The notes below the pieces were generated by a model, which was given only the letters and a program-made list of their open reading frames with translations, had not been told where the DNA came from and did not search any database. A stretch of DNA of 64,000 bases, taken from the NCBI RefSeq assembly GCF_016756495.1, contig NZ_AP023243.1, positions 2,298,501-2,362,500 on the forward strand, read 5' to 3'. The stretch comes from Mesorhizobium sp. 113-3-3. Its GTDB lineage: Bacteria > Pseudomonadota > Alphaproteobacteria > Rhizobiales > Rhizobiaceae. Both the position numbers and the translations under genes were made by a program. The number at the start of each line of letters is the position of its first letter. Positions within the stretch are counted from its first letter, which is position 1. Below are positions 14,448-18,327 of this stretch, piece by piece.

Positions 14448-14474
14448 GAACGAAATGGCGGCTCATTTCGTTCT
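14448..14474. repeat. 10-bp-arm hairpin at the stop of the DUF6638-like gene
   Basis: AGAACGAAAT (14448-14457) pairs with ATTTCGTTCT (14465-14474) around a 7-base loop and overlaps the stop codon of the leftward gene at 14473. It may stabilise the upstream mRNA or terminate transcription; no T-run follows leftward. Confidence 0.6.
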
Positions 14475-15774
14475 AGTCAGTCAGGCCGTAGAGGCGTGTG
14501 CGAAACGCCACCTTGTCCTTCAAATATGTGGTTTTCAGAACGTCCACAACATGCGACCGCCAGGCGTCGCTGAAGCCGTCATAGTCCTTGTAGAAGCCCT
14601 GCTTGTTGAAGATGTAGCGCGAGACGAAGTCGGTCGGCACGAAATCCGAGATCAGCCGGTTGGTCAGCCAGGCGTCGGGATGGTCCGGCTTGGCGCGGAT
14701 CACCAGGAAGCGTTGCTGGGGGAAGACATCCTCGATCTTGAGATGGCCAAGCTGGGCGATCTCGCGCTTGGCGGCGTTGAGGAAGGGGAAATTGCCGTCC
14801 TTGGTGATCAGGTCGGCATGGCTCTGGATCCAGGTCTGCAGCCAGACCTTGTCGACATCGGTCAGATTGCGGTTCGGCTCGGCGTCGCGGATCAGCGCGC
14901 GCACCACCATCTCGGCCCGGTGCTCGAGATAGCCGGACGCTTCGATCCAGGAGGCACGGGGCAGTTCGATGCGGCCGGTGCTGGCCAGGAACTTGAACAC
15001 CTTGTCGGCGTCGTTGATCGAGAGATAGCTGACCTGCCACGGCCGCGAGCGGCGAAAGCCAGGCGCGGCCGGATCGCTGATCACCGTCGTCATGTCGGGA
15101 TCGACGAACACGTAGAGCCCGCCGAAATGGCTGGTCCAGTAGGCGTTGTGGCGGAAGATCACCTGGTCGGGGACCAGCGCGTTCTCTCTGATGTCGCCGC
15201 AGATCTTCGCCAGCTCCACCATGCGCGTCAGCATGGCGTTGTCGCGCCAGGCATCGGGCTCCTGCTTCAGCCGGTCGACCAGCTTGCCGAGTTCGGCGGC
15301 CTTGCCCAGAACGTCCTCGGCCGACAGCACCTTGAACTCGACCTGGTTGATCGACAGCAAGTCCTCGATGTCGTTGACCTTGGGAACGGAATCCTCGATC
15401 TCGCCGTAGATGACGTCCTTGATGGTCAGCGCGTCGATGGCGCGCTGGTTCTTGGACATGAACTCGAACATCAGCTGCGAGGTGTTGGAGAAGGCGGTGT
15501 GCACCACCGGCAGGTCGATCTGCGACGGCGTCAGGATGATGAAACGGCGGTTGACCTCGTTGGGATCGAGATAGTCAGGGTCGCCGCATTCGTCGGCGAT
15601 CTCGGGCGAAAACCCGGTGCGGTCGATCTGGAAGCTTTTCAGCTTGGTCGGCGCGAGACCGAAGGCGGCCAGCGCCTTGTTGTAGCGCTGGATGAGGTGT
15701 GGCTCGTCGACGGGGAGCAAACGACCGTAGATGAGTTCGTTGTCGCGCAGGAGGTCGGGTTTTTTGGCGTTCAT
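14473..15774 (-). CDS. Uncharacterised protein, DUF6638-like
   Basis: A 433-residue soluble protein with no signal peptide or membrane helix. I associate it with the DUF6638 family from its position beside DUF2333 and an AAA+ gene, but this is recollection, not a search. It is mixed alpha/beta with no catalytic motif I can name. The ATG at 15774 (MNAKKPDLLRDNELIYGRLL) is chosen because the frame upstream runs through a hairpin repeat (PSPLPSPREERGEG), a non-genuine N-terminus. It is the fourth gene of the leftward operon, now separated from the ATPase gene by the nuclease cassette. Confidence 0.65.
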   Translation of the reverse strand: MNAKKPDLLRDNELIYGRLLPVDEPHLIQRYNKALAAFGLAPTKLKSFQIDRTGFSPEIADECGDPDYLDPNEVNRRFIILTPSQIDLPVVHTAFSNTSQLMFEFMSKNQRAIDALTIKDVIYGEIEDSVPKVNDIEDLLSINQVEFKVLSAEDVLGKAAELGKLVDRLKQEPDAWRDNAMLTRMVELAKICGDIRENALVPDQVIFRHNAYWTSHFGGLYVFVDPDMTTVISDPAAPGFRRSRPWQVSYLSINDADKVFKFLASTGRIELPRASWIEASGYLEHRAEMVVRALIRDAEPNRNLTDVDKVWLQTWIQSHADLITKDGNFPFLNAAKREIAQLGHLKIEDVFPQQRFLVIRAKPDHPDAWLTNRLISDFVPTDFVSRYIFNKQGFYKDYDGFSDAWRSHVVDVLKTTYLKDKVAFRTRLYGLTD

Positions 15775-15810: not shown

Positions 15811-15876
15811 AGCGCCAACGCTGACGTCCCCCTCTCCCCGTTCTTCACGGGGAGAGGGTAAGGGTGAGGGGCGGCA
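15811..15876 (+). repeat. Left inverted repeat of the DUF559 cassette
   Basis: About 65 bases starting AGCGCCAACGCTGACG, with an internal perfect hairpin CCCTCTCCCCG / CGGGGAGAGGG around TTCTTCA, and ending GGGTGAGGGGCGGCA. It is matched in inverted orientation at 16303-16365 with only a few differences. The GGTGAGGGG end faces the nuclease gene. Confidence 0.88.
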
Positions 15877-15883
15877 CCGACAG

Positions 15884-16300
15884 TCAAGGATATGTCTCCC
15901 CATAGCTTTTTGCGGCGATGAATCGAAGCTCACTCGTCTCAATATGACGATCGAGGCGCTGTTCTATTGCCGCCAATATCGTCTCAAGCACCGCGTCTCG
16001 CTCCTTTAATACGTCGACGTTCCAAAAGCGGAGTACAGACCAATCACTTGAGACCATGAGGCGATCTCTCGTTTGGTCGTACTTGCTGTCGACATGCTGA
16101 CTGCCGTCGACCTCGACAACCAACTGGCAGTCCCTGCAAGCGAAATCTGCAAAGTAGCGGCCTATTGGAAACTGTCTCACAAATTTGTGGCCGTTTAGTC
16201 TGCGGTCCCGCAACTCCATCCACAGTGCGTTCTCGGCGTCATTGTCTGACTGACGTAGACGTCGTGCTCGCCCTGTTGTTTCGATTTCTGGTCCACGCAT
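15884..16300 (-). CDS. DUF559 (Vsr-like) endonuclease-domain protein
   Basis: A 138-residue single-domain protein of the DUF559 / COG2852 group in the PD-(D/E)XK-like restriction endonuclease superfamily, related to Vsr. Visible features: DNDAENALWMELRDRRLNGHKF (E-containing N-terminal helix), VRQFPIGRYFADFAC with catalytic Asp, and LVVEVDGSQH giving the E-x-D part of the active site. No methylase or other partner is adjacent. It lies exactly between the inverted repeats and interrupts a compact operon, so it is probably an insertion cassette. Its activity and targets are unknown. Confidence 0.82.
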   Translation of the reverse strand: MRGPEIETTGRARRLRQSDNDAENALWMELRDRRLNGHKFVRQFPIGRYFADFACRDCQLVVEVDGSQHVDSKYDQTRDRLMVSSDWSVLRFWNVDVLKERDAVLETILAAIEQRLDRHIETSELRFIAAKSYGETYP

Positions 16301-16302
16301 GC

Positions 16303-16365
16303 GCTGCCCCTCACCCGTACCCTCTCCCCGTGAAGAACGGGGAGAGGGGGGCGTCAGCGCTGGCT
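16303..16365 (-). repeat. Right inverted repeat of the DUF559 cassette
   Basis: The reverse complement of the left repeat with a handful of substitutions: CTGCCCCTCACCC at the inner end, hairpin CCCTCTCCCCG / CGGGGAGAGGG, and GCGTCAGCGCTGGCT at the outer end. It begins 3 bases upstream of the nuclease start codon at 16300, so it also supplies the nuclease leader. Confidence 0.88.
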
Positions 16366-16416: not shown

Positions 16417-18327
16417 TTACGCATTCCAATTGCCCTTCTTCTTCATGTCCTCCATCTCGCGCGCCGCCCGCTCGCGAAGCCGCGCGTCGCGCAGCAGCTT
16501 TTCCACCGCGGCGTCGTCCGACTTGTCGGAATAGCGGAACTCGGAATCGGCGTAGCGGTTGATCTCCTGCATGACCATGTCCATCGAGAACGGACCGCGC
16601 AGATCCTCGATCATGGCTTTCTTCTCGTCATAGGTCTTGTGCATGAAGGCCTCCGGCTTCTCGAACCAGTCGTCGGGGAGTTCGATGTCCATGGCGCGCA
16701 TCTTGATGGCGTCGGTGACGTTCTTGATGGCGCGGCCGGTGAAGCGCGGTTCGGCGTCCTTGATCAGGTGCAGGTAGGTGCCGATGTCGGCCATGGTCTT
16801 GGGCGCGCCGTTCTCCTTCATGTAGCGTTCATAGACCTTCATCAGCCCGTCCTCTTGCGGCTTCTCATGCTCCTCATAGGCCTCGGTCACGGCGCGCTGG
16901 ATTTCCTGCGCGGCGTAGAGCTCGTGCTTGCCCAGAGGGATCTCGTGGTTCTTGCCGGCAAGCAGCACGAAGATGTCGATATAGTCGTCGCGGGTCTGCG
17001 GGCCGTCGACCAGCCAGCGGGCGCCGGCGCGCTGGCGCAGCGCGTCGTCGACATTTTCGGGATAGTTGGAGAACATGCCGAACGAGCAGTTGCCGCGCAC
17101 GACGGTTGAAGCGCCGGCGAAGGCATCCATCAAGACGCCGGTGATTTCCTGCTGGCCGGCCGAGGCGCGGTCGTCGGAACGTCTGGCGGCCACCTGGTCG
17201 ATGTCGTCGATGGTGCCGAAGCCGATGACGCGGGGATTGAGCACATTGTTGATGAACTGGCGGCAGTTCTGGCCCGACTTGCCCTGGTAGGACGAGATCT
17301 GGTCGACGCCGAAATTCTCGTAGGCGAAGGGATAGCCGGCGACCTGGCAGTAGCCGTTGACGAGGCCGGCGATCATCTGGATCAAAGTCGTCTTGCCGGT
17401 GCCGGGCGCGCCGTCGCCGATGAAGGTGAACAGGAAGCCGCCGAGCTCGACGAAGGGGTTCAGTTCGCGCTCGAAATCATAGGCCATCAGCATCTTGGCA
17501 AGCTTGACCGACTGGTATTTGGCGATGTGGTTGCCGACAACCTCTTCCGGCTTCTTGAAGGTCATCACCAGCGGCTTGGATCGCTTGCCCGGCGCGACGT
17601 CGAAGCCGTCGAGGGTGAAATCATCGGCATCGATGCGGATATGGGCGTTCTCGAACGGGCCGATGCCGTCGAAGCGGCCTTTTCTGGCCAGCAGCCCGTC
17701 GATGGCGACACGGGCAAAGGCGCGTGCCCGGATCATCAGGTCGGCGTCGTCCTTCGAGCCCGCTATCGCCTTGTCGAGGCCGGCGAGGATCGACTTCACC
17801 GCATCCTGCGGCGTGTCGAACAGGAAATCCGGCTCTGGCGTGTCGTTGGGCGCCTCGCCATCGCTGTCGATCAGCTGGAACAGATAGGAGGCGAGGCTGA
17901 AAGCCGAGGTGTAGGCGGAAGCGGAGAGAAGCCTCTTGAAGGCCGAGGCCTCGTCGCCCTCGAGCGGCGCGCGGGTGTTTTTCGCCTGCAGGCTTTCGAG
18001 GTCGGAGCCTTCGGCGAAGACATCCGATACTGCGAGCGCGATCGCCGTGCCGCGCCGGGCGCGAAACAGAAGCGTGTGCTGCGGGATGGTGAGCAACTGG
18101 TCGTCGGGATGGACGGCGCCGACGGTTTTCGTGAGCTCGACCTCGCGGGTGCGGCGCACCGAGCCGACCGAAACTGTCGAGACGAAGCGGCGGTTGGTGC
18201 CGGCCAAGGCCGTGCCGGATTCGCGTGAGGGATCCTCCAGCACGACGATGCGGGTGATGAAGCTCTGCGCGGTGGCGCGGTGCTTCTCGATCGCCGCTTC
18301 CGGGATGGTGGTCAGGCCGGTGTCCAT
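16417..18327 (-). CDS. AAA+ family ATPase of unknown function
   Basis: A 636-residue protein. The first 290 residues are a family-specific domain with no motif I recognise. The AAA+ module follows: Walker A GDGAPGTGKTT at 304-314, Walker B-like VIGFGTIDDIDQVAARRS, sensor region GNCSFGMFSNYPENVDD and an arginine-finger candidate DALRQRAGARW. The C-terminal 120 residues are helical and end in a charged coiled-coil-like tail. No membrane segment or signal peptide is seen, so it is cytosolic. It is the third gene of the leftward operon, 24 bases below the unknown gene above it. It is probably a remodelling ATPase working with the other operon products; the substrate is unknown. Confidence 0.8.
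   Translation of the reverse strand: MDTGLTTIPEAAIEKHRATAQSFITRIVVLEDPSRESGTALAGTNRRFVSTVSVGSVRRTREVELTKTVGAVHPDDQLLTIPQHTLLFRARRGTAIALAVSDVFAEGSDLESLQAKNTRAPLEGDEASAFKRLLSASAYTSAFSLASYLFQLIDSDGEAPNDTPEPDFLFDTPQDAVKSILAGLDKAIAGSKDDADLMIRARAFARVAIDGLLARKGRFDGIGPFENAHIRIDADDFTLDGFDVAPGKRSKPLVMTFKKPEEVVGNHIAKYQSVKLAKMLMAYDFERELNPFVELGGFLFTFIGDGAPGTGKTTLIQMIAGLVNGYCQVAGYPFAYENFGVDQISSYQGKSGQNCRQFINNVLNPRVIGFGTIDDIDQVAARRSDDRASAGQQEITGVLMDAFAGASTVVRGNCSFGMFSNYPENVDDALRQRAGARWLVDGPQTRDDYIDIFVLLAGKNHEIPLGKHELYAAQEIQRAVTEAYEEHEKPQEDGLMKVYERYMKENGAPKTMADIGTYLHLIKDAEPRFTGRAIKNVTDAIKMRAMDIELPDDWFEKPEAFMHKTYDEKKAMIEDLRGPFSMDMVMQEINRYADSEFRYSDKSDDAAVEKLLRDARLRERAAREMEDMKKKGNWNA

Follow-up and report, generated by a model that had tools for sequence, protein, structure and literature searches.

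A Vsr-like DUF559 nuclease gene bracketed by triplex-type repeats in Mesorhizobium, and its probable partnership with a dispersed repeat population

The window, the whole 64,000-nt stretch of Mesorhizobium DNA that was analysed, contains a short DUF559 gene in the middle of three genes that all lie on one strand, flanked by an AAA ATPase gene on one side and a DUF6638 gene on the other. The locus comprises the following features.

14473..15774, minus strand: DUF6638 gene, right-hand junction partner, outside the system (PF20343, E 2e-71).
15814..15875, plus strand: downstream (3′) repeat arm, orientation opposite to the DUF559 gene (inverted repeat of 62 nt, 94%).
15830..15871, plus strand: 42-nt triplex-type unit of the 3′ arm, with the hairpin at 15830-15858 and the third strand GGGTGAGGGG at 15862-15871.
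15884..16300, minus strand: DUF559 gene, 138 aa, type 1, predicted Vsr-like with a PD-(D/E)XK-type fold (PF04480, E 1.3e-35).
16303..16364, minus strand: upstream (5′) repeat arm, oriented as the DUF559 gene (inverted repeat of 62 nt, 94%).
16307..16348, minus strand: 42-nt triplex-type unit of the 5′ arm, with the hairpin at 16320-16348 and the third strand GGGTGAGGGG at 16307-16316.
16417..18327, minus strand: AAA ATPase gene, the other junction partner, outside the system (PF00004, E 2.6e-11).

The original prediction described a DUF559 gene tightly bracketed by inverted repeats with hairpins, and this is what the locus contains: the two 62-nt arms are 94% complementary, are spaced 427 nt apart and each carry a perfect 12-bp hairpin. 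The 3′ arm lies 8 nt past the DUF559 stop codon and the 5′ arm lies 2 nt ahead of the ATG, with both units facing the gene, the upstream one in the orientation of the gene and the downstream one in reverse. The 42-nt unit within each arm is laid out as CCCTCTCCCC-loop-GGGGAGAGGG-TAN-GGGTGAGGGG. When the half-site CGGGGAGAGGGNNNGGGTGAGGGG was searched for with up to 3 mismatches, the two arms were the only matches within the window, against 0.00 expected from 100 shuffles. No cytosine methyltransferase was found among the five ORFs profiled at the locus, where the four neighbours of the gene are DUF6638, AAA and two ORFs without a Pfam match, and no Y1/HUH transposase was found in the cassette, the Pfam matches of which are DUF559 and MTES_1575, the latter below its cut-off. 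Of 146 genomes searched from the genus, 144 have a relative of the AAA ATPase.

The product of 15884-16300 is probably a DNA-cutting enzyme. It scores 122 bits on PF04480, for which the gathering score is 20.6, and is therefore a member of the DUF559 family. Its predicted structure (pLDDT 86.8) matches 3hrl, I-Bth0305I and Vsr in comparisons by VIA-align and Foldseek, which are informative on fold only, among the matches listed; these are PD-(D/E)XK-like nucleases, consistent with a Vsr-like fold. The nearest solved structure among the matches listed is N. gonorrhoeae NGO0050 (PDB 3hrl), which belongs to the same Pfam family. Nine residues (E23, R42, Q43, D52, F53, C55, H69, D75, and R91) are identical in all 122 DUF559 domains compared, and E63, D65, and G66 are conserved in 99% of them; D52 and E63 are candidate active-site residues. 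The dN/dS ratio is 0.09 over 28 type-1 pairs, with a further value of 0.08, and the gene is kept by strong purifying selection.

Profiles of the long anti-phage proteins Hhe, ProA, and PDC-S37 also match the product, weakly and in their end parts. An anti-phage role was rejected: the matches are weak, and what they align to in these very long proteins is the nuclease end. Defence proteins probably use the same nuclease domain.

When GGGTGAGGGG is reversed and compared with the purine strand of the hairpin, nine of the ten positions match, the tenth being a T next to an A-T pair. A T beside an A-T pair is permitted by the triad rules of the antiparallel purine triplex. In 407 distinct copies of the repeat, a T-A pair in the hairpin is accompanied by A in the third strand in 238 and by G in 2, and a C-G pair by G in 149 and by A in 1, with other combinations in 17; the matched classes number 109 and 89 in 216 distinct element sequences. 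The p value of this covariation (9e-106) is too strong because the copies are related and hence not independent, and both states are found in several subfamilies. The unit thus combines a mirror-order match with third-strand covariation that follows the purine strand, the two features sought in a purine-motif triplex, and the covariation points to selection on the triplex fold, a fold previously known from in-vitro work only. For BoxC/PIT/TMECO, the E. coli intrastrand-triplex repeats described by Holder et al. 2015 (PMC4666352), the excerpted text reports triplex formation in vitro and in-vivo footprinting that gives no support. One relative (L277) has the type-1 third strand expanded to a slippage-like tandem of about ten GGGTGAGGG/GGGTAAGGG blocks.

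The association of gene and repeat was followed across a non-random choice of loci, comprising the 30 best-scoring of the genus, 50 named loci similar to the window protein, 40 hand-picked loci and those of the own genome. A score of at least 18 for enclosing inverted repeats was reached at 64 of 86 DUF559 domains and at none of the 65 other ORFs of those loci, a count made before the 40 hand-picked loci joined and with the profile-matched domain as gene position. A first version, which took the longest ORF for the gene and counted scores of at least 15, gave 44 of 78 against 3 of 99 controls, as false upstream starts hid overlapped arms. A unit lay within 400 bp of 109 of 121 DUF559 domains compared with 15 of 67 other ORFs in loci of the genus and its relatives, the corresponding figures being 39 of 41 domains and 15 of 49 control ORFs in the hand-picked set (L182-L221) and 20 of 25 domains beyond the genus, a set without a qualifying control ORF. 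Units occur at 1.3-1.6 per kb near DUF559 compared with 0.07-0.18 per kb elsewhere in the loci. An enclosing inverted repeat was absent from 46 of 122 domains and a unit within 400 bp from 12 of 121. Among 27 loci from the phylum search, a gene-oriented unit ended no more than 40 nt from the domain start in 10, an opposite unit began no more than 15 nt past the domain end in 13, and both arrangements were seen in 6. With its cognate dispersed palindrome on either side, the gene shares this part of its layout with REPIN/RAYT loci.

Two further loci of the own genome lie on contig C1. One, near 835 kb (L003, 1379-1669), holds a truncated DUF559 fragment within an inverted repeat of a different type (47 nt, 91%); the other, near 3.645 Mb (L002, 1860-2000), holds a second full DUF559 gene with C/T-rich palindromes upstream only.

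Six repeat types (T1-T6) were distinguished by sequence among the 122 full domains that remained when 7 fragments were removed from 129. Many forks of the protein tree have weak support (8 of 118 inner branches are starred); placed on this tree, the types require 18 label changes against a shuffled mean of 67.4, with a value as low in 0 of 200 shuffles. Repeat type thus follows protein clade. The genomic position of the gene is largely constant: 12 of 14 T1 loci and 16 of 16 T2 loci are at the AAA/DUF6638 junction, 25 of 29 T3 loci share a second context, and 29 of 46 domains without enclosing repeats share a third.

The junction itself is polymorphic. In 89 typed genomes (one contig-end locus was left out), 18 carry T1, 15 carry T2, 2 carry degenerate remnants and 54 have no DUF559 gene, so that the empty sites anticipated by the original prediction do exist; the DUF559-less alleles include 13 free of repeats and others with a bare repeat or a doublet. 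A gap of about 87 bp between the AAA and DUF6638 genes had been predicted for an allele without the cassette, a figure that is sound as arithmetic, but the repeat-free alleles of relatives are tighter, with spacings of 9-12 nt in nine loci and 25-28 nt in four (79 of 90 loci measured; the other 11 lacked a recognisable AAA gene end). The proposal of a small mobile unit with an endonuclease holds in that nuclease and repeats belong together and lacks support as regards the carrying around of the gene, and a jumping cassette was dropped because the genomic contexts of the gene turned out to be fixed. Neither of the two outcomes named as refuting the prediction was encountered, namely that all relatives carry the gene with diverged repeats or that the repeats are placed randomly with respect to DUF559 genes.

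Several other arrangements were noted at these loci. Same-strand DUF559 pairs about 1,085 bp apart occur in five genomes (G004, G071, G124, G127, and G128), with two such pairs in L018 and L033, whereas a REPIN/RAYT arrangement would have a single gene of each type per genome. In eight loci (L048, L055, L154, L159, L160, L161, L167, and L175) the AAA protein is two residues shorter, ending in KKGxW and a stop where the type-2 repeat or remnant starts, and in L047 a 1.37-kb DUF559-free insert lies within a repeat at the AAA/DUF6638 junction.

Repeat copies without the gene exist elsewhere in the genome, another expectation that was borne out. The own genome has 82 copies of the wider repeat class, of which 42 are single, and all 20 neighbour pairs within 200 nt are inverted, with 0 on the same strand, giving inverted doublets as in REPIN/RAYT. 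Three copies in the own genome are of type 1, two of them being the cassette arms, and most of the 82 belong to other subfamilies. On the 7.1-Mb contig C1, 70 of the 82 copies fall in the first half (binomial p 4e-11). The pattern used for the wider motif has 0 matches in the window because its first gap is too short for the type-1 loop, and counts made with it, including those of the phylum search, omit type-1 copies.

The third type-1 copy lies between two conserved genes, where the unit is present in 26 of 30 aligned relatives and absent from 4. The commonest lengths of this site are 183 versus 141 and 186 versus 144, that is, exactly 42 bp apart; 20 more genomes, picked for split matches, have no repeat whatever there, and presence and absence correspond to 3 changes on a weakly supported tree. 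The target duplications that the original prediction had looked to were not seen by eye at this one polymorphic site. The dispersed item is the 42-bp repeat, and not the gene.

Copy number is related to the presence of the gene. The median number of type-1 repeat copies is 8 in the 18 genomes with T1 at the junction, compared with 0 in the 15 with T2 and 0 in the 54 with none, an excess with p 3.5e-6 after subtraction of the two arms and with kinship ignored. Across the genus, the number of DUF559 genes and the number of motifs are weakly correlated (rho 0.31, p 1e-4).

Co-occurrence of gene and motif was found in a set of 299 genomes from 70 families of the phylum (Pseudomonadota, to judge by the named loci), in which a strong DUF559 match was taken as E up to 1e-10. 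DUF559 and motif occur together in 65 genomes, while 15 have DUF559 only, 18 the motif only and 201 neither, giving an odds ratio of 48 (p 2.7e-34); within families, the Cochran-Mantel-Haenszel p is 5e-13 over 11 informative families. With one point per family, p is 9e-10. As a control, Y1_Tnp was compared with the motif in the same genomes and gave an odds ratio of 0.84 (p 0.51), with a weak, non-significant trend within families (p 0.06-0.14 depending on the cut-off), and the reversed motif had 0 matches among the genomes listed. Eight of the 18 motif-only genomes have at least 10 copies and one has 131. The genome profile search can miss genes, PF04480 having gone undetected in E. coli despite the match of ycjD (E 1.4e-49), and some motif-only genomes may be cases of a missed DUF559 gene. 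The pairing of gene and repeat is general across many related bacteria. Plasmid records of Cyanobacteria and Deinococcus also contain relatives.

Taken together, these data suggest that the DUF559 enzyme is the missing partner of the scattered repeats. In REPIN/RAYT systems, according to the excerpted accounts (PMC8049555, PMC3116915), RAYT genes are vertically kept in a stable place with their own flanking repeats, and the repeats are scattered as singlets and inverted doublets that are more numerous where the gene is present. On balance, the cassette is probably the home locus of a REPIN/RAYT-like partnership of gene and repeat, in which a Vsr-like nuclease replaces the transposase and spreads or maintains the repeats. 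We infer active nuclease function, with binding and cutting of the repeat as the means by which the repeat is spread or maintained. The small nuclease gene would stay at its fixed place, bracketed by two inward-facing 42-nt units, and its product would recognise the unit folded into a hairpin or an intrastrand triplex in single-stranded DNA, such as that of the lagging strand, and cut there; host replication or repair would then copy or re-insert the freed 42-nt unit elsewhere. Cutting at a folded single-stranded unit is proposed from the parallels with REPIN/RAYT and from a hydrolytic nuclease fold being present instead of Y1.

The main rival is that a structure-specific nuclease cuts or resolves folded repeats and so keeps replication going, with no spreading at all, gene and repeats co-occurring because repeat-bearing cells need the nuclease. 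Co-occurrence and type specificity also fit this explanation, as does the strong purifying selection on the DUF559 gene; PIT elements stall DNA polymerase in vitro (excerpted text of PMC4666352), and the third-strand expansion in L277 hints at replication slippage. It is nonetheless judged unlikely, as it accounts neither for the fixed spacing and orientation with which units of the gene's own type bracket it nor for the existence of repeat-rich genomes in which no DUF559 was detected.

A lesser rival, and an improbable one, is a free-standing homing gene, the nuclease of which would cut empty junction alleles that are then repaired by copying the gene in, leaving the repeats as mere ends of the element. 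The filled and empty alleles at one fixed site in the 89 genomes are as such a gene would have them, and the predicted fold resembles that of I-Bth0305I, an EDxHD-type homing endonuclease. Neither the scattered gene-free repeats of matching type nor the co-occurrence of motif and gene across the phylum is predicted by homing, however.

Very improbable is a role in mismatch repair, in which DUF559 would be a repair nuclease of the Vsr type and the repeats, gathered nearby, would be common ornaments of intergenic DNA or terminators of transcription. A Caulobacter DUF559 protein has been credited with mismatch repair, at least in the excerpted text (PMC12907096), which counts against the repeat-partner reading, but ornaments of this kind should be as frequent beside other genes, which the repeats are not, type-matching and co-occurrence would be unexplained, and no cytosine methyltransferase was identified among the five ORFs profiled around the gene. 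A transposable element of the MITE or insertion-sequence type, carrying the DUF559 gene as a passenger, is hardly tenable: the terminal arms are inverted and gene-free inverted doublets exist, but DUF559 is the sole gene of the cassette and belongs to no known transposase family, its position is fixed, one site shows no target duplication and the link to Y1 is non-significant.

The partnership of nuclease and repeat can be set beside several known systems. Vsr and I-Bth0305I differ from the window gene in that no linked cytosine methyltransferase, intron or intein was seen with it and it has repeats associated with it. The CGTC-tagged REPs are dispersed palindromes, mainly of alphaproteobacteria, described in the excerpted text without a dedicated transposase (Di Nocera et al. 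2013, PMC3733652). In the same text their stems are 8-9 bp long, have A and T in the first positions and are accompanied by a CCA tail, compared with a C/T-rich stem and a G-rich third strand here, and they were set aside as the identity of the repeats because stem and tail differ.

The closest likeness in the repeat itself is to BoxC/PIT/TMECO, for which the excerpted text of PMC4666352 gives the consensus CCCTCNCCCN3-6GGGNGAGGGN3GGGNGAGGG, 23 copies in MG1655 with five inverted pairs, instability and a greater variability between strains. The order of parts, CCCTCNCCC-loop-GGGNGAGGG-N3-GGGNGAGGG, is shared with the type-1 unit, and both are intergenic and form inverted pairs. The type-1 unit does not fit the strict consensus, with a longer stem of 12 bp and, because the stem is longer, an N of 11 in the first loop compared with 3-6 in E. 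coli; repeats of the other types have an extra small hairpin in the second loop, unlike the BoxC consensus. According to the same excerpted text, its authors saw no mobility gene, transposase or integrase remnants near these repeats, whereas the repeats in the present analysis are linked to a DUF559 gene. In E. coli, the product of ycjD (117 residues) is itself a DUF559 protein; TMECO no. 9 sits 167 bp past the ycjD stop, a second BoxC-like hairpin overlaps the 3′ end of the gene, and between these two units lies a 39-nt, 90% copy of that 3′ end. Both units are 3′ of ycjD, with none on its 5′ side, and E. coli is a partial example for this reason.

A broader and more tentative proposal is that DUF559 provides a second route, free of transposases, to populations of tiny repeats, in which the nuclease would recognise a folded single-stranded triplex of about 42 nt that is copied through host replication and repair. 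BoxC/PIT and the C/T-rich repeats known from rhizobia, pseudomonads and other bacteria may then form one superfamily served by DUF559. BoxC/PIT repeats occur in hundreds of bacterial genomes and are tied to instability, with no known enzyme, and the widespread DUF559 family has no assigned function; a link between them, for which no paper was found in open-licence PubMed Central texts, would give both family and repeats an address. If the nuclease spreads the repeats, REPIN/RAYT-like partnerships would have arisen at least twice from unrelated enzymes.

Relative to REPIN/RAYT, the gene here encodes DUF559 and not a Y1/HUH transposase, Y1 does not track the repeat, and the repeat consists of a hairpin with a third strand. 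The likeness lies in the arrangement, with a DUF559 gene in a largely fixed place, flanked by its own repeat type, which is scattered as singlets and inverted doublets and rises in copy number with the gene.
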